From assembly GCA_963921825.1 (NCBI GenBank), contig OY997592.1, forward strand, positions 22,571,432-22,635,431: DNA of 64,000 nucleotides, given 5' to 3'. The position numbers and the translations under genes are program-made. Origin of the DNA: Erodium maritimum (taxonomy: Eukaryota > Streptophyta > Magnoliopsida > Geraniales > Geraniaceae). The stretch's first letter is position 1. Each line of letters begins with the position of its first letter. A model generated the notes under the pieces. That model saw nothing but the letters and a program-made list of their open reading frames with translations, had not been told where the DNA came from and did not search any database. Shown here one piece after another: positions 3,856 to 63,284 of the stretch.

Positions 3856-5430
3856 TCAAACCAAGCATCTCGGGATTAGGTCTACCCCAATTGTAAACTC
3901 AAAACCCGTTGAACCTTCTCCTCTGCCAGGCACGGTCTCAACTTCCCCACGTCGCATGCTTTCTCCCTTGTTGTCATGAGGTTCTGAACCAATAAATCTT
4001 TCATAGGCATGTGGCGGGTACGCACATAAGGATCCTCCCCTGGGAGTTAAGGCCAATCCATCACCTTCATGTCTGACCCAAAGCAATAAAACGTCTCACC
4101 CTACTCCGAATTAAGGAATGAATCCCCATGAGACTACTCCAAGTATAACTTGGAATACTTGGTGTGACCCGTTCTTGCAAGAAATTCAATATCGGGTAGT
4201 ACCTTCCCCTCATAACCCTATTAACAAGATCATCCTCATATACCGTTAGGCATCATGCATGCATTCATAGTAAAGCCGTGTTGAATTCCTTTAAGTTACA
4301 GAACCCCAATCCGCCCCGACACTCATAGACGATTCTTTTGTCCCAGCACTTCCATATCAGAGGGCGCCTTGCCTTTCCCGCACCGTGCCACCAATATTTG
4401 TCCATCTCTTATGGATATTATCAAGAATAGAATATGAGTCCGAAAGACACTCATAGTGTACATAGGGATAGCTTGTAAAATCGACTTGATAAGAATCTCC
4501 TTTCTCGCCCGGTAGAGCAAACGATCATGTCAACTATGGATGCGTTTCATAACCTAGTCTTGTGCAAAACTCAAACATTGTTTCTTGCTTCTTCTGATAA
4601 GGTTTCCCACTCCCCAAATCAGTCGATCCCTCTAAAACCTCTCGAATGTCGAGAAGGTTACAACATTTTTCCCTACTCTAGATCGATGTATTCGAGCTAA
4701 AACCAAGGAAGACTTATTGATGTTAATCACCTAACCCGATTGAAAATAAAACTACATCAGGAGCTCCTGGAGAACTTTTACTTCCCTCACCGTGGCCCTA
4801 CAAAATAGATAGCAGTCACCTGCAAAGAAATGGTGTGATATAGTCAGTAACCCTTGTGCCACCTTATACTCGTGTAACTCCCCTCGCCCCTCCCAAAACG
4901 CCATCATTATGGAAAAACCATCCATGCATAACAAAAATAGGTAGGGCGACAAAGGGTCCCCTTGATGCATACACTGAGCCGATATGATAGCCCATATAAC
5001 ATTGTCCCCTGCCTGCACCTCATATTGTACCGTCCTAAGACACCCGACCACCAACTTAAACCATCTATCCTCAAACCTACAATATAGCATCACCCGTAAA
5101 ATAAAGTCCAACTCCACTCTGTCATAGACCTTACTCATATCGAGCTTCAGCGCCAAAAACCCCACCTCCCCTTGTTTCTTCAGATGTAGGTAGTGTATGT
5201 TCTCGTGTGCGATAAGGACATTGTCATAAATGGATCTATGAGAGATAAAGGCTCCTTGGGTGGGAGAGATCAGGTCATGTAGTAACGGTTTCATCCGATT
5301 TGCGATTACCTTAGAGATCACCCGAAATCTCACATTATAAAGGGCTATAGGTCTGAGATCTGCCATCTTCGATGGATTTTCTTTCTTTGGGATAAGAACT
5401 ACCCCAAATTCTCAACATGTCCGCCAAACT
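3856..5430 (-). pseudogene. Degenerate LINE ORF2 fragment (RT and downstream region)
   Basis: Reading leftwards, the minus strand encodes an L1-type plant non-LTR retrotransposon reverse transcriptase. VVLIPKKENPSKMADLRPIALYN is followed by the RT fingers/palm region (5366-4752), including the block ending QGDPLSPYLFLLCMDG. Downstream of the RT come KEILIKSILQAIPMYTMSVF (near 4500) and GLGFCNLKEFNTALL (near 4310-4265), both typical of the region between RT and the zinc finger. The catalytic motif reads FAGD (near 4830) where the family has FADD, so one metal-binding Asp is replaced by Gly. Stops and frameshifts separate the blocks and there is no endonuclease part. The left part (3856-4090) is open but only weakly LINE-like. 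The right end abuts a PIF-type sequence at about 5430-5475. Confidence 0.8.
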
Positions 5431-12456: not shown

Positions 12457-14090
12457 TTTTTTTTTGATAAATGATGATTTATTGATAGACTTTGGAATAA
12501 AGATAATTACAAAGCCTGAGGACCGCTAAAAAGCTATCCCAAGTAACCTACAAAAGTGACTCTACCACAAACGGTAAGAGAATCTTCCTAAAAAAGCGAA
12601 ATAAACAACGAAGAGCGGGGAACAACAGCCAAATACAAGGAGATACTAATCGATAGAAGGAGGAACATCATCCTTGAACTCTATCTACAGTAACGTCCCT
12701 GTAGCGACAAAGTGTCTCCAAGCCTCGTTTTTACGTTGAGCCTCGAGCTTCTCGATTTCACTCATACAAAGTGAGCGAGTCGTCACCCAAAAAGGCTGGT
12801 GGGGTTTCTTCTTTCTTTTCTTTTTAACCTTCTGTATTGTTTCAGGAGACCACACTGGAAAGTTTTGATCGAAACATGACAAAAGGGAGGGAGTCGGTGA
12901 AACCCGAGTGTCTGACTTGGGGAGAACATTCTTCACCAAATCAGAACACGATGCAAGAGGGCAGGCAAAGACTGCATGGCTAGATGCAGGCCTAGTGTCC
13001 TCAGGCCCAGACTGCTGTTCTGGTTGGACAAACAAAGGCCCAAGAGTAGGTCCTACGTTTACAGGCCCATTTGCACTTAACAAAAAATGGGCTTGAGCCC
13101 TGCTGGCCCAAAGAAGAAACAGTCCCTTTAACCTCTGCAGATACGATCTCATTGACCGAAATAGAAGGGGATCGGGGATCGCACGCTTGTGTGGAATCGC
13201 GCGACGCAATCTAATCCAGAGATTGACTCCATCTGTGATCTTCGGCTTGCACGCTGGAAATCAGAGATCGAGTATCTTCAATCAACGATTTCGTCAGATC
13301 CTTATCCATCGCCGGCGAACAATCCACCGATGAGCGAGATCCCGCCGGCGAGCACGAGAGTTCAGGGACGCCAATCGCTACCATCTGATGATTGGGGGCC
13401 GGATCAGTGCTTGTTTGAACTAGGGAACCTGCTGGTTTGGAGGCCGGATTGGTGGCCGGAGTCGCACCAAGGTCACTGTGAAACCGATGAGAAGAAGGTC
13501 GAGCCAGAGCCACTAGAAGCTGGTAACCATTAAATTTAAATCCATTCAAGCTCTCTACTGCTTGTGACGCTGCTGAGTCAGTTGAGAAGGTGATGAAAAC
13601 GTAGTATCGTCCTCTTCTATTTCTACGGCGAGGAACGAAGCATGTTTGAATTTCATCGTAAGTACCAAAGAAATTCCTTACCCAAGCAACTGAGTTCTCA
13701 GGGAGATTACAGATAAAAATCTGATTTGAAATTACCTCTAATCCTTGTGAAGCTGAGTTTTTTTATACCAGTTTGGTTGACGGAGTAGCAACAACCGGGA
13801 ACTTTGCGAGGCCGGGGCTGCAATTGACAGAAGAGGTCGCCTTCGGAGAAGATGTCTCCTTCGGTGGATTAGATGCATCGTTTCCACCGGACCTATCCCG
13901 ACCATGTCTGCGACTTGGCGGTGGCTTCTTGTGGATCTCCTTCACCGGAACCGAAACAGGCTTCCTTGATACAACGGGGAACTTCTTTCGGTTCTTCCTC
14001 TTGACGTCCTTTTCAGCTCTAGAGGAGTCGTCCTTTACAGAATCCATAACTATTCTCGAGAGTTATGTGTTACCTCCACTTTAGCATGTT
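12457..14090 (-). mobile_element. LINE with ORF1 only (RRM type), bracketed by TSD
   Basis: A minus-strand insertion with an A-tail (plus-strand T run from 12457) is flanked by a perfect 17-bp duplication CATTACACATCAAAGTT (12440-12456 and 14091-14107). Its 5' end therefore lies at 14090, only 43 bp before the ORF1 ATG at 14047. ORF1 starts MDSVKDDSSRAEKDVKRKNR, a basic N-terminus. After one in-frame stop comes an RNA-recognition motif at about 13710-13510, with RNP2 IFICNL and RNP1 RGRYYVFITF. A Ser/Pro-rich tail follows and, after a stop and a frame change, a basic C-terminus ending at 12685. The 3' UTR runs directly to the A-tail. No endonuclease or reverse transcriptase is present in 1634 bp. 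RRM-containing ORF1 is known in plant LINEs (the BNR group of beet). Confidence 0.85.
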
Positions 14091-39908: not shown

Positions 39909-42900
39909 ACTCTTCTTTTATAGCCCTGATTCCTAAATGTGGTACTCCAGTGACTTTTGGGGACTTCAGGCCTATTAGTCTAATGGGGGGTCCCTACAAA
40001 ATACTTACTAAATTGCTCTCTTTGAGACTCAAAGAAGTGATTGGCCCTTTGGTAGGGTTTGAACAGACAGGTTTTCTAGCTGGAAGGCAAATTCTTGATG
40101 GAGTACTTGCTGCAAATGAAGTGGTTCAGGAGATTAAACAAACCAGGGTCAAGGTTATTATATTCAAAGCAGGTTTTGAAAAGGCCTTTGATAATATCCA
40201 CTGGGACTATATGATGAAGCTGTTGCACAGACTTGGTTTTGGGGCTCTTTGGAGACTTTGGATGATTTCTTGCTTTAGAGCACACATGTCAGTTCTTATC
40301 AATGGTTCACTCTCTCCTGATTTTCCAATGTTTAGAGGTTTAAGACAAGGCTGCTCCATCTCTCCACTTCTATTTGCCTTAGCTGCTGAAGGTCTGAATC
40401 AGATCATAAAGGCTGGACTCAATCAATCTCAGTTTAATGGAATTTAAATAGGTCTTAATGGTCCCCAAATATCCCACCTTAAATTTGCAGATGACTCCAT
40501 TTTCTTCATCCAAGCTTCACCTCAAGGAGCAACAAATTTAAAGCATGCTCTTGAAATGTTCAAACTTGCTGCAGGATTGAAAGTAAACTTTAGCAAATCT
40601 ACATTGATACCACTGAACCTATCCCAAGAAGAAACCCTTGGTTATGTTGAAATTCTCTCTTGTACTGTGGAAGCACTCCCATTCAAGTATCTGGGCTTTA
40701 GCTTAGGCTCTAATCCCAGGAGATTGATTACCTGGAAGGCTATCATAGAAAAATTCAAGAACTCCCTTGGACTTTGGCAAGCCAAAACCTTGTCCTTTGG
40801 TGGTAGGATCACTCTGATCAAATCCACCCTCAGTGCACTACCTCTCTATTTCCTCTCACTCCTTAAAGCTCCTAAATCAGTCATCAAAACCATGAAAGCT
40901 TGACAGAGAAGATTTCTTTGGCATGGAGCTGCCCCAGCAAGAGTTTTCTGTAAAGTTAAATGGAATCAGGTCTGCAAACATAAATCAGATGGAGGGTTGG
41001 GTATAAAAAACTTGGAATTGATGAATCTAGCTCTTTTGGCAAAATGGTGGTGGAGGTTTGCAATTGAAGACAACTCCCTTTGGAAACTGATCATCTGTGC
41101 AAGATATGGAGGTGGATCTAAGGACTGGGACTTGACAAATTTGAATGAATTGGGGGGTAGTAGCTTCTTTACTCATATCATCTCTTTGGCCAAAGATCCT
41201 AACTTTGCAGACTGGTTTGGAAACAAAGGTCTCTCTTGGACCTTGAGGAGGGGTACTAGGATCTTCTTTTGGGAAGATGTTTGGTGGGGGGAGCTGCCTT
41301 TTAAATCTCTCTTTCCTAGGATCTATCTACTGGCCAAGAGTAAGAAGGCTATCATTGCTGATCTCTGGGAAGACAACAACTGGAACCTTGATCTGAGAAG
41401 AGATGCTAGAGGCTGGGAACTCCTTGAATGGGGGTGTATCTGTGCTATTCTTAATGTCACTAGATTAACTCAGTTGGATGACAAATTATCCTGGTCTGGA
41501 GATGATAAAGGATTCAGTGTTCACAAAATGTATGCTTTACTTGCAGCTCAAGCAACCTCCTCCTTGAAGTGGACAAAACACCTTTGGATCTCTGGGATAC
41601 CCTCCAAGATATCTGCCTTTTTTTGGTTAGCCTGCCTTGAGGCTATACCCTCTAAATGTTTCCTAGAAGGAAGGGGAATGCCTTTAACCTTACAAAACAT
41701 CATTTGTCCTCAATGCTCTTGGGATAATGAGGATAGTGCTCACATACTTCTCCATTGCAGCAAAGCCTGGGTGCTTCTATCCCTAATTATCACTTGGTGG
41801 GGGATATCTTGGGCATGTCCTTCTGATATTAGAGCTATCTTTAACTATTGGCCCTATCTTGTCTCCTCCAAGTTCAGAAGATCCTGGTGTAAAATTCTTC
41901 AATCAGCTCTCTGGTAGTTATGGCTCTCAAGAAACAATTTTATCTTCAAAGGTCAACAAGAATCACCTCATGTACTATTTTCCAAGGTCATCAACACCAC
42001 CTACAGTTGGGAATGGGCCTCCTTTGACAGCTCTTATCATTTTCCTCTGCTGGGATGGATCACCAGTCCTATGGACTTCATTAAATTTTGATTTATGGGT
42101 TCTCTTGGGTTGGGATTGGGGTTTGGGTTTCTGGGCTGGTTTTACGGGGAGTGGCATGTGAGTTTGGTAAGGTTCTTGTTGTTTTGCTTTGTTGTGCTTC
42201 CTTGTGTGTGGGTTCTTCTTTCCCCTCCTCTTTCATCTTCTCCTCTTGTCTGAGGGTAGACTTTTTCCTAGGTTTTGAGTGCTGCTCTTTCTCTGTTCTC
42301 TCTTGTTCCTTCTTTTCAGGTTGCTAAGCTACCATTAGCTCCTGCTCAAGTCTTGTTTCTTCCGGAGGTAGTTCTGCTTCTTCGACCATTGTTACTAAAA
42401 TCATTGCTACTCTCCTGCCCTCAAAAATCATTGCTACTCTCCTGCCCTCAAAAATCATTGCTACTCTCCTGCCCTCAAAAAGCTTATACCTCAACCTGTA
42501 AGCTACTTCCTCAGTACTGGCCACTCCACCTTGCTCCTGCTCAATCCCTTTTGCTCCTTACTTCTTCTCCCTAGCCTCTCTACTGCCCCCACACACTCTG
42601 CTGCTCTCCACTTTTACATCTCACCACACCCGTTCACCTCTCTTTGCCTTCAAATCTTGCATTTCCTGTGAAGGCTGTCAATATTGATGCATTCATTACA
42701 CTAAGCTGCCATTTTGGTTACTTACACTACTTCAAGCTTCTTACTTGCACCGCAAGTCACTTCTTTTGTATATAAGTTGGACTTTTGTGTTTGTTTTTTG
42801 ATGCTCCTCCCTCTTATTTGGGTTCTTGGGAGCTTTTCTGTTGTTTGGTTGTTGCAATCTCTAGGGAGATTGCCTTCTTTTGTAACCCTTTTCTACCTCA

Positions 42901-55099: not shown

Positions 55100-56973
55100 A
55101 CTTGTAATTCCTTTCACGCTCTCTAATTTGTGTGCCTCTCTCTAGATATCGATCTAGCCCTAACCCTAGCCTCTACCATGTCGTCTTCTCCCCGCCTGCA
55201 ACTACCTTGACTGTTGTGCCACCTCCAACTGCCCTCGACATGTCACCTCCATTGTCTGTCGAGAAGCACTTCCCTACCCCCTCATAATGCCCCCCCAAAC
55301 CCCCTTCTGGTTCTGTACGCCCGATATGGGTTAGGAAGAAACGCAACCCTAAAGCATCTTCCTCTGTATCGTCGATCACGTCGCCTTCATCATCGGTCCT
55401 GTTTCTCCCACCTAGCCTTCCATATATAGTCAAGGCGGTGGTGGTTTTCTATCCTATGCTTGCACCACTAGACACGACCCAGCGAAGCTGAAGCGTGGTC
55501 GCCCTCTGAAGCATCTCAGTCATGTACTGTCACAGGTGATGATTGTGATGTCTCCAACCCCTGATGGTCCTGTTTCGGGGGTCATGGCGATTGTTAGGGC
55601 TCCGGATCAATCTATCTCAATGGTATCGGCGGATGAAGTTTCGACTAGGTCTCCAACTCCACCTATCCCATTATCGCCAATGGGGGATCTCTAGGCTGAT
55701 TTCTCTACATGCCACCTCATCGAGGAAGTAGAGATGGAGATTGTGATTTCGTATACCCCAGCGGACCAACAGGCAATGGCCCGGCTTCAATTTGGTATGG
55801 TGGGTCGACTGTTATCCCCCAACCCGCCCCAAAAGGACTCCATCCTCACGATCATTACACGTGCATGGGGCCGATCGGCCTCAGGTTTGGTAGTCAAGGA
55901 CCTGGAACCAGGTTCCTTTTCCTTCTATTTCCCATCCCATGAGGTTATGGCTTGGGACTGTAGTAATGACCCATGATGCTTCAATGGCCACCCACTACTA
56001 CTTGGAGAGATTGTGGATCTGATGGCTTGGAACCTGTCTAGGTTAGACGCATCCAGTTATGGTTGCACGCTCGAGGAGTTCATCGTCCTTTCCGGCGTAC
56101 CATGATTATGAGGTTCAGAGATTTCTTGAACTAATGAGGGTTACCCCCACCTATGAGCGCTTCTCATCCTTTTTCTTTAATTGTGGACGAACTGGACATA
56201 TGGTCCAGGATTATGATCGGGAGGTACCACGAACGCCCAAGTTTGATGACTCGATCTTGGAGTTCAAGGCGGGCAAGTTGGAGAAGACATGCACCACGGA
56301 TTGCGGTATGACCACACCACCACCACCACCACCACTAGGGTTCGCATTACTAACCTCGGACATGATACATAAGGATGGGTCGTCTCGGGGTAAGGGCCCA
56401 CTTGTAGCCTCAGACACAATACATAACCCATATTTCGGGGTTAAGGGTCGTATCGGGGTCGTCCTTACCCTCGCGGGGCTGGGTACTCTTCATAGGTAGG
56501 CCTCCTTGGGTCTGTCCCATATGTGAAGCTGTTAGACCCACTTGGAATGTCACCAGGCTCATCGGGCCAGAAGAGTGACACTGCGGGGGAGTCGCGTGAA
56601 AATCAGGCGAGAGTTGGGAAACAATCCCACCATGAAGGATGATAGGAAGCCATGGATTCGGGGACCTATTTTGGGAGGGTTCCCTGGCTCAAGCCTTCCC
56701 TCCCGATCAGACTATCAGGTTCAAGTTCGATCGCCCACTTCACGACAAAAAGAGTTCTTGGAGAGTAGGGATCAAGCAGCGTTTAGGCACTACTTTGAGC
56801 GGTTCTTGGCAGTTTGAGCTTTTTTAGTTTTAAGTATTGTTTTAGTTTTACTTACTGGTTATCAACACTGTCGCCTATTGCAGGACCGGTAATCTTGTCT
56901 CAAAGTTTTCTGGTCATAGACTTTTGGGGGGCTTTGACCGTTATAATGACTCTTTATTATCGCTTATTCTAAA
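55100..56973 (+). mobile_element. LINE with ORF1 only (DUF4283 type)
   Basis: Flanked by a 17-bp direct repeat with two mismatches (AAAAAGTTGTTTCTCGT at 55083-55099, AAAAAGTTTTTTCCCGT at 56974-56990), ending in an A run. After a CTAGCCCTAACCCTAGCC leader, ORF1 fragments read VRKKRNPKASSSVSSI, then a DUF4283 domain (MVGRLLSPNPPQKDSILTII, TRAWGRSASGLVVKDLEPGS, FSFYFPSHEVMAWDCSNDP). A zinc knuckle follows (FFNCGRTGHMVQDYD, the last Cys replaced by Tyr), and the C-terminus is RFKFDRPLHDKKSSWRVGIK. The 3' UTR follows directly. There is no EN/RT. Several stops, so an old copy. The interval to 57250 is non-coding. Confidence 0.75.
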
Positions 56974-57924
56974 AAAAAGTTTTTTCCCGTTGTAATTAAA
57001 GTTTTATCTGGGCTTTAATACTTCGACTCACATTTTTTCTTCAAAATATGACCTTTGATCATCTTGTGGCCTTAGTCCACCGCCTAAATTTTCTAGGGGT
57101 AGGGATGGCCCTAACATCGACAAGCTAGGGTTAAGGTTAAACGGGTTTAAAGAGCACATGGTACGAGAGCATGGAGAAGGGATATTTCATAAAATATGCT
57201 TCATAATGGTGTAATTTTGTTTACTATGCCAGTATGGTTCAAAATTTAAAAAAATATGTTTTTCAATTGTTTTAGTACAATAATACCTTATTATAATTTA
57301 AAAAATATAATTCATAGTTTATTAATTCATTTAAATCTATTTTCACAATAAATATTCAGTTTTTAAATAAAATATTTTATAAATTGTTAAAACTATACTT
57401 TATTTTCGTAAAAATCAAATTATTTTGATAAATATTTTTAAAAAGATAATTCAACGATAATTTTTCAAACAAAAATATTATACTTCATTATTTTCTTTCA
57501 GTTTTATTAATTATTAAATTCCTATTTTAATTCCTATTTTTTCAAATCGGATTATTTTGATAAATATAATTTGAAAGATAATTCAATTTTATAAAAATCA
57601 AATTTATTAGTTACTACATTCATATTTTACTTTTAATATAATTTGAAAAATAAATTAAAATCTGAATTTCATAATTAATAAAATATGAATGTAGTAACTA
57701 ATAAAATTAAAAAAATATTATTTTTATAAAAATCAATTTTATTTTTTACTAAATTCATATTTTACTTTTGATATAATTTGAAAAATAAATTAAAATCTTA
57801 TTTTCATAATTAATAAAATATATTATAAATTTAATTATCTTTCTAAAATTATTATCAGAGTATTCTGTTTTTTTAAATAAACTCAAATCTAATTTTTATA
57901 ATTACTAATATTAACAAAATAAGG

Positions 57925-59065
57925 AAAGGGCGAAGGTCTTGTTGGGGGAACCATGGTCTTTTGGGGACTTTTTAGTGCTGTTTACTGATCTGAGAGCTCA
58001 CATGCAAGCTAGGGATCTCGACTGTCATCATTTCTTTGTATGGGCAAGGGTATCCAATCTGCCGGTGGGGGCGTGGACGAAGGAGGTGGGTTTCAAGGTG
58101 GGGAATACATTGGGAGTCTGCCAAGCGGTGGACGTGGATAAGTCGGGTCTCTGCTGGGGAGACTTCATGAAGATCAGGATTAGGGCGGACATCAGAGTAC
58201 CACTGCAAAGCCAAATATGGTTTCGGCTATCAGAATCACATGTACGAACCCTTCTCTATGTGTCTTATGAACACCTTTTGGACCACTGTTTTGGCTGCAG
58301 TTGTGCGGGCCATCTATTCTCAGCCTGTCCGGTAGCCGAGGGTGTTAGGGGTCCATCGTTACGAGCACCAACGGACCCGAGATCAGCCTTGGAGAAGGCG
58401 AAACATGGGAAGGCTACGCCGCGGACAAACTGGACATATATGGGAGGAACCGGGGGAGTGACAACCAAACCTGCTAGACCACAGACGCCTCCTCAGGATC
58501 AAGAAGGAAGGACGTATAGGGGTCAGGCGGACCGTCAAGAGGAGGTATCAGTAGGATGGCTTCCTAGGGATCCTACATCGTCGTTGTTAGGGAAGAAAAG
58601 GCTGGAGAGGGACGGGGAACCTGAGGAATCAGAGGGATCGACGGCATCCGATGGGGCATCACAAGCACCCCCGCCTCCAGGAATGAGTCTCTGGAGTCTT
58701 AGGGAGGGGTTGGTCGACTGCACCACTTCCCTGGCAGAATGGTGGCAACGGTTCTGCCAACAGTCGACATGATTATCCCCTACCAGTTCGGGGTCAGTAC
58801 TCCCGCGTTTAGGAGCCCTACAAATATCAGTCAAGGGAGGACGACGCACGCTGACTTCCTGGGGGAGATATCGGTCCACCACTATAATCTCTCCACTTGG
58901 TCTGCTCGATCAGTGTATGTTGGTTGGAGCATGATGTATCGGTGTCTTTGGATGCTACCGCAGTCCCCCCCCCCCCCCCCCCCCTTTATGCCCATGAGTA
59001 ACATTTACTTTTCAGTTATTGCTTTCCAATATTATTTTAGTTTCTTGGTTTGTATGGTGGTAGTA
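57925..59065 (+). mobile_element. 5'-truncated LINE ORF1 copy
   Basis: Aligns with the LINE at 60741 from AAGGAAAGGG (61930 there) to the 3' UTR, and ends in the loop of the inverted repeat. It contains a 20-base C run (58965-58984) where the other copy has CAATCCCACATCCCCGACCGC. The 5' half of ORF1 is missing and no A-tail TSD is visible. Confidence 0.7.
57939..58772 (+). pseudogene. LINE ORF1 C-terminal part (DUF4283 tail, zinc knuckle)
   Basis: An uninterrupted frame of 277 codons starts with the end of the DUF4283 domain (LLGEPWSFGDFLVLFTDLRA) and continues VWARVSNLPVGAWTKEVGFK and VDKSGLCWGDFMKIRIRADI. A zinc knuckle of the CCHC_4 type follows (YEHLLDHCFGCSCAGHLFSA, C), then a long Arg/Glu/Pro-rich tail with GKKRLERDGEPEESEGS. 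It probably binds LINE RNA. It lacks a start because the element is 5'-truncated, and the 61699 copy encodes the same protein. Confidence 0.7.
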
Positions 59066-59411: not shown

Positions 59412-60672
59412 GGGTAAACTACAAATACATACCCCAAACTTGTCACGATTAACTAATACCTATCCTCATGTTTTTTTATAGATACATACTCAAATGTTCC
59501 GAAAATTAACGCAAAGCCCCTGCCGTCCAACTCCGTCAGTCTCATTTTTGTTAAATGACGAATGTACCCTCAACAAACTTTGAATATTACATAACCATCC
59601 TATTTTGTTATTTATTTAGTTTTTTTTTTAAAATAAACTCCCTCTCTCTCCTTCCTCTGTCGCCCTCTCTCTCTGCCCTCTCTCTCATTTCTCTTTCTCC
59701 TCCCCATCTCTCCTCTCTCTCCTCCCTCCACTGTCGCCCTTCTCTCCTCCCTCCACCGCCCCTCTCTCTTCCCTCCGTCGCTGCCTCTCTCTCCTCCCTG
59801 GGCCGCCGCCCCTCTCTCCTCCCTCCACTTCCCCTCTCACCTCCCTCTCTCTCCTCCCTCCACCGCCCCTCTCTCCTCCCTCTCTCTCCTCTCCCTCTCT
59901 CCTCTCTCCGTTGCGCCCCTCTCTCCGCGACCCACACATCTCACCTAGCTCCTTCTCTCCTTCTGCCTCAGTCTGGCCTCAAACCCATTCCGACCTTACA
60001 GTCTCACCTCCTTCAGTTTCGTGTTATCGATTCAATTTCCCCGAGAAAATTGTTGGATCCGTTAGAAAGGGGCGGTGGATTTGAGCTCGGAGTCGGCGAG
60101 GAAGAGGGGTAGATCCACGAGGCGAGGAAGATGAAACTGATTTTTTATTTTTTTTATTTACTGTTATTCGTTTTTTTATATATATGCAATATTAATAAAT
60201 TTTTAATTAATAAAAAAGGATTTCTACAAAAATAATAAAATTACATTTAAAATAAATCAATGAAAATAAGAAATATTAATAAAATTACATTTATTTGATT
60301 ATATTACAAAAAGAAGTATTAAAAATAACTAAGATAAATAAAACATTTTATATTTATTAAAAAAATAGTTAGGAATTAAAAAAAAATCAATTTTTTATTA
60401 AATATATAAAACAGAATTAATAAAAAATGTTATAAGAAATGATTTTTGTAAACAATGGTATTTTCGTAAATATATGAAAGATAGAGTTGGATTTGGGGTT
60501 AAGGGTATTGTGGGTATTTTTGAAAAAATTAACAGAAAATGGATGGAAAATCAGACGGCATGGGCTTTGCGTTAATTTTCGGAACATTTGAGTATGTATT
60601 GGTTAAAAAAAAACATAAGGGTAGGTATCAGTTAATCGTGACAAGTTTGGGGTATGTATTTGTAGTTTACCC
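59412..60672. mobile_element. Mutator-like element with long TIRs and a CT-rich core
   Basis: The ends GGGTAAACTACAAATACATA are identical for the first 20 bases, and the arms stay similar for about 115 bp to GCCGTC. The flanking 9-mers are AATTATATA (59403-59411) and AGTTATATA (60673-60681), eight of nine identical. The core has a ~300-bp CTCTCC tract and a short unique GC-rich segment (59940-60130). No transposase. The long TIR and 9-bp TSD indicate a non-autonomous Mutator-like element, possibly one that captured host DNA. Confidence 0.85.
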
Positions 60673-60740
60673 AGTTATATATTTTGAAATATTTATCAAA
60701 ATAATTAGATTTTTAAGAAAATAAAATAGAATTTTAAAAA

Positions 60741-63145
60741 AAACAGTGGATACGCAGCCGTGCTTTCTCTTCTAGGGTTTTGCAGGTTTTGCGAAGGTAG
60801 CCGTCTTCCATGGATCTCTCGATGACGATGGCGAGTGGAGAAGGCGGTGTGGCAGATGAAGTCCATTGGGGGCCGTGTCTGGTGGAGTCCGGTGAACGGG
60901 AAGGGTCTCCGGTGGCGGGGGACGACCTCGGTCGCGGATGGGTGGAGCCGGAGGAGGGGACGCAGCAGGGCTCTGAGCCTTCGGCGGAGGTGACGCCGGT
61001 GGAGGAGGTGACGCCGGTGGAGGAGGCCACGCCGGTGATATCAGATGGGCTTTGGTCGGGGAGGGCTTCGGGTCTCCCGGAGATGCAGTTCTCGGCCGCA
61101 CCAGTGGAGGAGGAGGGCTGGGTGGTGGTCGTCGTCTCCGATCCGGGCCGCCCACCCTCCGTCGCACGGCGGCGAAGGGCCCCAGGCCGCGCCGGCCGGG
61201 CGTTGGTGTGGGCCGGAGCAGGGTGGGGCAGGACGGTGCTGCTGCCGGTGAGGAGGTGGTGCATGGCGCGGGCGGCAGTCCGGTGGTGATCTCGTCGGAC
61301 TCGGTGACCGGGACGGATGAGAGGACGGGGTCACCGGAATCGGAGTCGGAGCTGGCGGCGAGGGCGGTGCCGGAGGAGGTGACTTGGCGGCGAAGACAGA
61401 GGAAGGAACCCATGGCGGCTAGGGTTTCGCCACCTCGGGCCAGGGAGGATGCGGGCTTGGGCCGAGGGCTCATGTCCGATGCCCGTAGGGCTGTTCATCC
61501 GCGGCCTGGGCTGGGCCCTCATCCGGGCTAGACCCGGGGAGGCGTGGGAGATGTGGCGACTTGGGCCGCCCGTTATGGAGCGGGTCGAGGTGCACATGGT
61601 GGACCGGGGGCGGATCCGAGGGCTGGGACGGGTCGGGTGCCTGGTTCGGTTATCAGGGGAGACCCACCAGTGGATAATGGAACTGATAGGGGGAACAGGT
61701 GGAGCTGGACCGTCAGATGGGGGCTATGCGGATCAGGGAAGTCGTGGTCCTAGTTCAGGAGGTTACGGGCAGGGGGAACTTATATAAGTATGCGCTGGCA
61801 GCCAAGGTCCTGACCTCCAGGAATGTCTTATGGAAGTCAGTGGTGGCACGCATGGAGGACGTCTGGGGTATGAAGGTGGAGGCGAAACCATTGGAAGGTG
61901 GTCTAGTGGCTTTTTTCTTCAGGACGGCTAAGGAAAGGGAAAGAGTTCTGCTGGGGGAACCCTGGTCTTTCAGGGACTCTTTGGTCCTGTTTACGGATCT
62001 GAGAGTGCACATGCAGGTTAGTGACCTGCAGTTCCACCATTTCTCGGTTTGGGCACAAGTGTCCAATCTTCCAATTGGGGCCTGGACGAGGGATGTGGGG
62101 TTTAGAGTTGGCAATGCACTGGGCGTCTGTCAGGGCGTAGATGTCGACAAGGATGGGCTATGTTGGGGGGACTTTATGAAGGTCCGGATCAGGGCAGATA
62201 TCAGGATTCCCCTGCAGAGTCAGCTTTGGTTCCGCCTCTCTGTCTCGCAGGTACGGGCCCGTTTGATTATTTCTTATGAGTATTTACCTGAACATTGCTT
62301 CGGTTGCTGCTGCGCGGGTCACCTCTTTCCGGTCTGTCCGGTTGTGGGGAGCTCGAGGGGAGTATCCCTGAGGGCACCAGGGGACCCGCGGTCGGCAATA
62401 GAGAAGGCGAAGCACGGGAAGGCCATCCCTGGAACGAACTGGACCTACTTAGGGGGGTCGGACAGAGGTGTCCGATCTAAAGAGGCCCCACGAACACCAG
62501 GGCGGAAGGAGGACCGGGGTTGTGGGGGCGCAGTCAAGCAGGGGTTGAGGAGGATCGGGACGCCTGGATGGCAAGGGATCTGGCACCGTCACTATCGGGG
62601 AATAAGAGGCTAGTGCGGGAGGAGGAGCCAGAAGAGGAAGAAGACTCGGCGGCGTCCAATGAGGTTTCACCTACAGCGGCGGGGGGCTCCAAGCACCCTC
62701 GCCTCCAGGAATGAGTCCGGCAGGGGCCAGGGAGGGTTTGGTCGGCTGTACCTTCTCCCTGGTGTATAGGTGGCATTGGTATCACCAACAGCTGACGTGT
62801 TACTATCCTACCACTTCGGGGTCAGCATTCCCGCGTTCAGGAGCCCTACCACTATCAAGCAAGGGAGGACGACGCACGCTGACATACCGGGGGAGTAATT
62901 GGTCCACCGTTGTTTACTTATCCTCTGATCTGCTCGGTCAGTCTCTTTTGGTTGGGGTATACTGTATCGGTATCCCCGGATGCTACCGCAATCCCACATC
63001 CCCGACCGCAATTATGCTACAGAGCACATTTACGCTTTATGCACTTGTCTTTCCAATTATTCTAGTTTGGTTTATGTACGGTGATTTCCCTCTGTGGAGT
63101 CCCAAGTTATTTTACATTAATGAATATCTCCATTTCCTCTAAAAA
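60741..63145 (+). mobile_element. LINE with ORF1 only, 17-bp TSD
   Basis: A 2.4-kb insertion between perfect copies of AAATAGAATTTTAAAAA (60724-60740 and 63146-63162), ending in an A run. It starts with a short leader (AGCCGTGCTTTCTCTTCTAG) about 65 bases before an ATG and ends with a 3' UTR (TTTTACATTAATGAATATC) and tail. It carries ORF1 only; no endonuclease or reverse transcriptase fits between the ORF1 end (~62710) and the tail. It interrupts the right arm of the AT-rich inverted repeat. Confidence 0.9.
60810..62713 (+). pseudogene. LINE ORF1 protein (DUF4283, CCHC knuckle), frameshifted
   Basis: The ATG at 60810 (CCATGG context) opens MDLSMTMASGEGGVADEVHW and an acidic Glu/Pro-rich N-terminus with repeated EEVTPVEE. 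The frame then shifts to one with SSDSVTGTDERTGSPESESE and again to one reading VHMVDRGRIRGLGRVGCLVR. From 61699 a 304-codon stretch carries DUF4283 (LTSRNVLWKSVVARMEDVWG, VLLGEPWSFRDSLVLFTDLR), WAQVSNLPIGAWTRDVGFRV and a CCHC_4 knuckle (YEYLPEHCFGCCCAGHLFPV, C). In the known family, ORF1 is an RNA-binding chaperone of the LINE. At least three frameshifts disable this copy. GC content is far higher than in the surrounding AT-rich arms. Confidence 0.8.
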
Positions 63146-63284
63146 AAATAGAATTTTAAAAACATTTTTTTTTCAGAACTGAATATTTATTTTGAAAATA
63201 GATTTAAATGAATTAAAAACTATGAATAATCTTGTTTAAATTAGAATGGGGTATTATGGTCCTAAATCAATTGAAAAACATATC

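Follow-up and report, generated by a model that had tools for sequence, protein, structure and literature searches.

An ORF1-only LINE family alongside ORF2-only LINEs in the genome of Erodium maritimum

Long interspersed nuclear elements (LINEs) that carry open reading frame 1 (ORF1) alone are known in mammals as HAL1 (half-L1); they kept ORF1, lack ORF2, and were moved in trans. The present work concerns such an element in a plant, found at positions 60741–63145 of a 64,000-nucleotide stretch of Erodium maritimum DNA (contig OY997592.1, positions 22,571,432 to 22,635,431, forward strand), hereafter the window. The element is a member of a real, high-copy ORF1-only LINE family, and the ORF1 of this family is under purifying selection. 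Its likeness to HAL1 lies in the retention of ORF1 without ORF2, and for the Erodium family movement in trans is what we infer. It differs from HAL1 in its plant host, its DUF4283/zinc-knuckle ORF1, the thousands of places occupied by its 3′ untranslated region (3′ UTR), and the ORF2-only LINEs that stand alongside it. The usual view is that ORF1 acts in cis, on its own encoding RNA. With ORF1 and ORF2 on separately replicating elements, cis and trans action of ORF1, or a combination of the two, could be told apart, and such a genome lets one ask why selection keeps ORF1 on an element unable to copy itself. The arrangement could also alter the counting of plant LINEs now annotated as defective.

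Several other described systems resemble parts of this arrangement. The zebrafish LINE ZfL2-2 has ORF2 only, and its ORF2 protein recognises the element's tail, which makes it comparable with the Erodium ORF2-only LINEs of tail types a and b described below; it belongs to the L2 clade, however, and the part of the source available names no ORF1-only partner (PMC4176376). The same source describes pairs of LINEs and short interspersed nuclear elements (SINEs), in which the 3′ tail of a non-autonomous element is like that of its helper (PMC4176376), as may be the case here, except that the follower in Erodium codes for a selected protein. Another plant LINE, Celine of poplar, has DUF4283 in ORF1 and target-site duplications (TSDs) of at least 10 bp, but it carries ORF1 and ORF2 together on one 6.1-kb element (PMC11288735). 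Plant L1s with RNase H, such as Ta11 (PMC5348765), share RVT_1, zf-RVT, and the RNase H-like RVT_3 with the ORF2-only LINEs of Erodium. In the open-licence literature, with subscription papers and repeat libraries outside the search, no plant pair of ORF1-only and ORF2-only LINEs was found. Each half is known singly; what is not listed there, and is new against that literature, is the presence of both L1-type halves as separate, selected families in one genome.

The 60741 element and its family

The genome searched comprises 763 Mb. An unbroken match running from the leader or ORF1 of the 60741 element to query position 2398 or beyond is present in 38 of 40 scored genome loci (the 60741 copy included), three of the 38 beginning within ORF1. 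The two exceptions are C8:18051159, which ends at 2002, and C8:3161885, which has a gap of ~216 query bases. From the best 40 matches to the 3′ UTR, 30 loci were cut out, many of them the same elements as the 40 scored loci, and in 30/30 the end of ORF1 lies directly upstream of the 3′ UTR. The insertions have the marks of LINE-type, target-primed integration, namely TSDs of variable length, A-tails, and a common 3′ end; a TSD score of at least 13 was obtained for 15/21 full copies compared with 0.7% of 420 mismatched flank pairs. Replicating copies thus contain ORF1 and lack ORF2 (38/40; 30/30), as in HAL1. The family has the DUF4283 and zinc knuckle of a plant L1 ORF1, and the copies examined do not carry on the same element the ORF2 with endonuclease (EN) and reverse transcriptase (RT) that characterises plant L1s.

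The window contains two copies, the 60741 element and a member of F2, the diverged second subfamily. Their features are as follows, where type b denotes one of the tail types of ORF2-only LINEs.

60724–60740, no strand: left 17-bp copy of the TSD; the inverted-repeat arm is interrupted here
60741–60809, + strand: 5′ leader of the ORF1-only element; many genome matches begin at query position 12
60810–62714, + strand: ORF1, broken in the 60741 copy and open in other copies
61849–62190, + strand: DUF4283 domain (Pfam E=3.6e-15)
62197–62340, + strand: zinc knuckle, zf-CCHC_4-like (E=3.7e-4, under the Pfam cut-off)
62715–63140, + strand: 3′ UTR directly after ORF1, containing the motif GGAGGACGACGCACGCTGAC
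63112–63140, + strand: terminal tail, weakly resembling the tails of type b ORF2-only LINEs
63141–63148, + strand: A-tail, overlapping the start of the right TSD
63146–63162, no strand: right 17-bp copy of the TSD
57920–59059, + strand: F2 copy truncated at both ends, consisting of part of ORF1 and then the same 3′ UTR

The 60741 element is a 2.4-kb LINE composed of a leader, a broken ORF1 with DUF4283 and zinc knuckle, a 3′ UTR, and an A-tail. Its TSD, AAATAGAATTTTAAAAA, is a perfect 17-bp repeat at 60724–60740 and 63146–63162, or 18 bp counting one extra A. Segment 57319–57383 pairs as an inverted repeat with 63155–63219 (86%) and the adjoining 57384–57449 with 60675–60740 (85%); because 57319–57449 pairs with DNA on both sides of the element, the inverted-repeat arm continues across it. 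A preliminary description, made from the window's sequence, had placed a 2.4-kb element between perfect 17-bp repeats that interrupt such an arm, and both the repeats and the arm pairing were found. The first 11 bases of the leader are unlike most copies, and the conserved start ACGCAGCC lies at 60752. ORF1 of this copy is disrupted by small deletions and one stop.

Allowing up to one mismatch, the 20-base 3′ UTR motif GGAGGACGACGCACGCTGAC has 3609 occurrences across the genome and its reversed control has 0. Comparable positions of the motif, ORF1, and zf-RVT are available in a single stretch, C1:1–25.16 Mb, into which 3 of 72 ORF1 loci fall. There the motif follows the ORF1 match at a distance of 234 bp in 3/3 ORF1 loci, lies within 8 kb downstream of zf-RVT matches in 0/5, and is present downstream of the six best Pfam DUF4283 matches in 0/6; lacking the motif, these six therefore belong to other families. 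Among the matches listed, no copy with ORF2 between ORF1 and a 60741-type 3′ UTR was found, and a rarer two-ORF relative may exist.

The F2 copy at 57920–59059 is 68% identical to the 60741 element. It begins inside ORF1 and is without the terminal tail that its relatives retain. The F2 subfamily has the same order of ORF1 and 3′ UTR as the 60741 family, bearing out the earlier remark that a related copy passes from ORF1 straight into the same 3′ UTR. Repeated loss of ORF2 in more than one lineage had also been proposed; within the DUF4283 group this is unsupported, as ORF1 passes into the 3′ UTR in the same order in both subfamilies, consistent with ORF2 having been lost once, long ago. Matches to F2 at the 3′ end only were considered as candidate ORF2-bearing elements and rejected: one of four (L062), read at length, is a shorter derivative without DUF4283. 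Two F2 matches ending at or before query position 736 were read (L081 and L082); both enter other repeats, and neither has an EN match. The derivative, L062:6239–7627, is ~1.4 kb long; it has lost DUF4283 but retains its N-terminal part as well as the 3′ UTR.

The broken ORF1 of the 60741 copy is what would be expected of an ordinary decayed LINE, the two window copies sharing one private deletion of ORF2. The preliminary description had named this outcome, with the 3′ UTR always behind an ORF2 elsewhere, as the one that would overturn it, and the counts run the other way (38/40, 30/30, and 0/5 for zf-RVT). A private deletion is rejected in the copies seen, 38 of the 40 scored loci having the same architecture. 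With ORF1 under selection and two diverged subfamilies besides, simple decay can be given almost no credence.

Selection on ORF1 and its predicted fold

A comparison of dN/dS across ORF1 copies had been asked for in the preliminary description, and it reveals selection. In pairwise comparisons among all 21 copies, pN/pS is 0.19 for DUF4283 and the knuckle (codons 296–520), 0.28 for the C-terminal part, and 0.52 and 0.78 for two N-terminal parts. Read in the wrong frames, the DUF4283 part gives 1.83 and 1.35, and values for the 3′ UTR, treated as if it were coding, are 0.54–0.90. Between the 60741 family and F2, pN/pS is 0.17 over 170 codons, with 30/20/99 differences at codon positions 1/2/3. 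Within the family, the 210 pairwise dN/dS values have their median at 0.36; they are 0.64–0.77 in the five closest pairs and 0.26–0.30 in the five most distant, as expected if inserted copies decay freely while breeding lineages stay constrained. No stop occurs over at least 550 residues in 25 of 76 ORF1 match rows.

These copies also bear on whether the family could consist of retrocopies of a DUF4283-bearing host gene. Either origin would give copies that lack introns and have A-tails and TSDs. However, open copies, 74–100% identical to each other's query, are found at scattered loci and the subfamilies keep the same order, while a single parent gene would leave mainly dead copies; an origin from a host gene is thus highly improbable.

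The zf-CCHC_4 match of the zinc knuckle (E=3.7e-4) is below the Pfam cut-off, and its C-x2-C-x4-H-x4-C residues are invariant in 4/4 aligned ORF1s. The first half of DUF4283 has an RRM-like fold in a predicted model of modest confidence. The 60741 ORF1 had been called unrelated to the RRM type; given the RRM-like predicted fold, this may hold for sequence only. At window 13214–13762 (− strand) is an open frame with an RRM-like pattern, identified by text-pattern match, that is probably the RRM-type ORF1 to which that statement referred.

ORF2-only LINEs and the candidate helper

Candidates for a helper that would copy the ORF1-only LINEs were sought by reading the 3′ ends of 10 of 150 zf-RVT matches (open frame of at least 925 aa each) and then of 20 more. 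The ORF2 ends fall into tail types a, b, and c in 24/30 cases, the rest being others; among the 20 further ends, no recognisable tail was found in L084 and L095. Types a and b belong to LINEs that the preliminary description missed, in which a 460–510-bp leader runs straight into ORF2 (EN, RT, zf-RVT, and RNase H) and ORF1 is absent. These ORF2-only LINEs terminate ~20 bases past the stop codon, followed by poly(A). One of them, on C8, contains Exo_endo_phos, RVT_1, zf-RVT, and RVT_3 domains, and its reading frame is itself broken.

LINEs of types a and b replicate as elements that have ORF2 and lack ORF1. Exact 15-bp TSDs flank two type a elements (L075/L066 and L079/L072). Among 40 scored of 346 candidates, the type a leader continues into ORF2 in 34 other loci, 25 of which share a 5′ start at query 27–34. 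The type b leader does so in 19 other loci among 40 scored of 113 candidates, 16 of the 19 sharing a 5′ start at query 69–74, and two more loci are split by insertions. A zf-RVT match lies downstream of the leader in at least 12/22 type b and at least 21/35 type a loci, 31/33 of them at 3.47–3.57 kb; these counts are lower bounds, as 33 of 150 zf-RVT positions, chosen by eye near leaders, were entered. For type b, 12 leader pairs were given, of which 2 had no scorable A-run, and the TSD score is at least 12 in 7 of the 10 scored. Mismatched pairs (n=90) have a 95% point of 11 and a maximum of 14, which 5/10 true pairs exceed. EN segments of 39–122 codons have pN/pS of 0.03–0.15. The leaders are poor in ATG, with 6 seen versus 26.4 expected. 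Among individual ORF2 loci, EN was not at the expected place in L076 and L078, no TSD was found for L077/L069 and no A-tail for L070, and L073/L063 has a 9-bp repeat only.

In many insertions of both kinds (ORF1-only, L039–L058; ORF2-only, L104–L123), ~10–90 non-shared, mostly AT-rich bases separate the conserved 5′ end from the left TSD. Part of this extra DNA is common to L073 and C7:7184831, two closely similar ORF2-only copies whose match starts at query 55 rather than 70, as if the DNA had been brought from a source locus.

The best explanation of these observations, to which a probability of about 0.6 is assigned, is that the ORF1-only LINEs are copied in trans, most likely by the ORF2-only LINEs. 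ORF1-only RNA would be copied by target-primed reverse transcription. An ORF2 protein, most likely from ORF2-only LINEs, would recognise the 3′ tail and poly(A) of this RNA and would then nick AT-rich DNA and prime copying. The ORF1 protein may bind the element's own RNA through its RRM-like domain and zinc knuckle. The gene would be kept because lineages in which ORF1 still functions leave more copies.

The link between the two halves was sought in their 3′ tails. The F2 tail of L062 matches type b with a best score of 16 (null maximum 12; reached by 0/196 null values) and averages 13.6 across 17 tails of that type versus 7.2 across three two-ORF or unclassified LINEs, in a comparison containing only one proven two-ORF LINE tail. 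The F2 tail of L061 also fits type b best, with a maximum of 12 versus a null maximum of 9.5. Of 8 more F2 tails, from a set of 10 loci in which L126 and L131 (no A-run) were left out, 6 fit type b best. Judged by tail similarity, the link to type b ORF2-only LINEs appears good for F2 and only suggestive for the 60741 family. A third ORF2 tail type, c (L092, L093, and L102), reads TTTAAATAAAA.CTCATATT..CTC and is the best fit for the tails of L130 and L060.

A number of observations weigh against copying by ORF2-only LINEs. The tail match of the 60741 family itself is weak, with a mean of 7.9 to type b (maximum 11) versus 6.3 to two-ORF or unclassified LINEs, where the null has a 95% point of 5.5 and a maximum of 10. 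The F2 tail of L060 fits type c best (11, not above its null maximum of 12), and among the 8 further F2 tails one ties with the two-ORF L065 and one (L130) fits type c best. No leader homology between the ORF1-only and ORF2-only halves was found in L073 or L074. As for the ORF2-only LINEs as replicating elements, 3/10 pairs are without a convincing TSD and two of the seven passes (12 and 13) are inside the null range; CAT is also low in their leaders (6 versus 11.3 expected), and the scarcity of ATG does not extend to every leader, as 5 of the 6 ATGs sit in a single one of the five, L079. Lastly, a conventional two-ORF L1 with a DUF4283 ORF1 (L074/L065) is present and is a possible helper.

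If elements of the L074/L065 kind were the helper, the ORF2-only LINEs would be uninvolved in the movement of the ORF1-only family. The ORF1 of L074/L065 is 31% identical over 233 residues to that of the ORF1-only family and is its sole, distant two-ORF relative among the matches listed, and the two-ORF tail fits the 60741 family just slightly worse than type b does. The F2 tails, however, are mostly closer to type b (13.6 versus 7.2 for L062, and 6/8 of the others), and a two-ORF helper is considered unlikely.

Copying by ORF2-only LINEs has a narrower form, in which these LINEs are self-sufficient and the dependence is one-way: the ORF1-only family would be a HAL1-like parasite whose ORF1 serves its own RNA alone. 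The ORF2-only LINEs retain TSDs, a selected EN, and a leader leading straight into ORF2, and zebrafish ZfL2-2 is described as an ORF2-only, retrotransposition-competent LINE (PMC4176376). Nothing decisive stands against one-way dependence, and it is regarded as quite possible, short of probable. The dependence might instead be mutual, with ORF1 and ORF2 forming a split, two-component LINE: they would belong to distinct transposon families alike in their 3′ tail, ORF1 would also serve the RNA of the ORF2-only LINEs, and the two families, each dependent on the protein of the other, would persist together. Such mutual need is held to be rather doubtful.

Other repeats in the window

Between the two ORF1-only copies, window 59412–60672 is an element with long terminal inverted repeats (59412–59480 and 60604–60672, 94%) and a CT-rich interior. 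LINE remnants are present at 56059–56496, with a zinc knuckle frame (zf-CCHC_4, above the cut-off); at 39950–41914, with RVT_1 and zf-RVT frames; and at 4755–5366 (− strand), with an RVT_1 frame.
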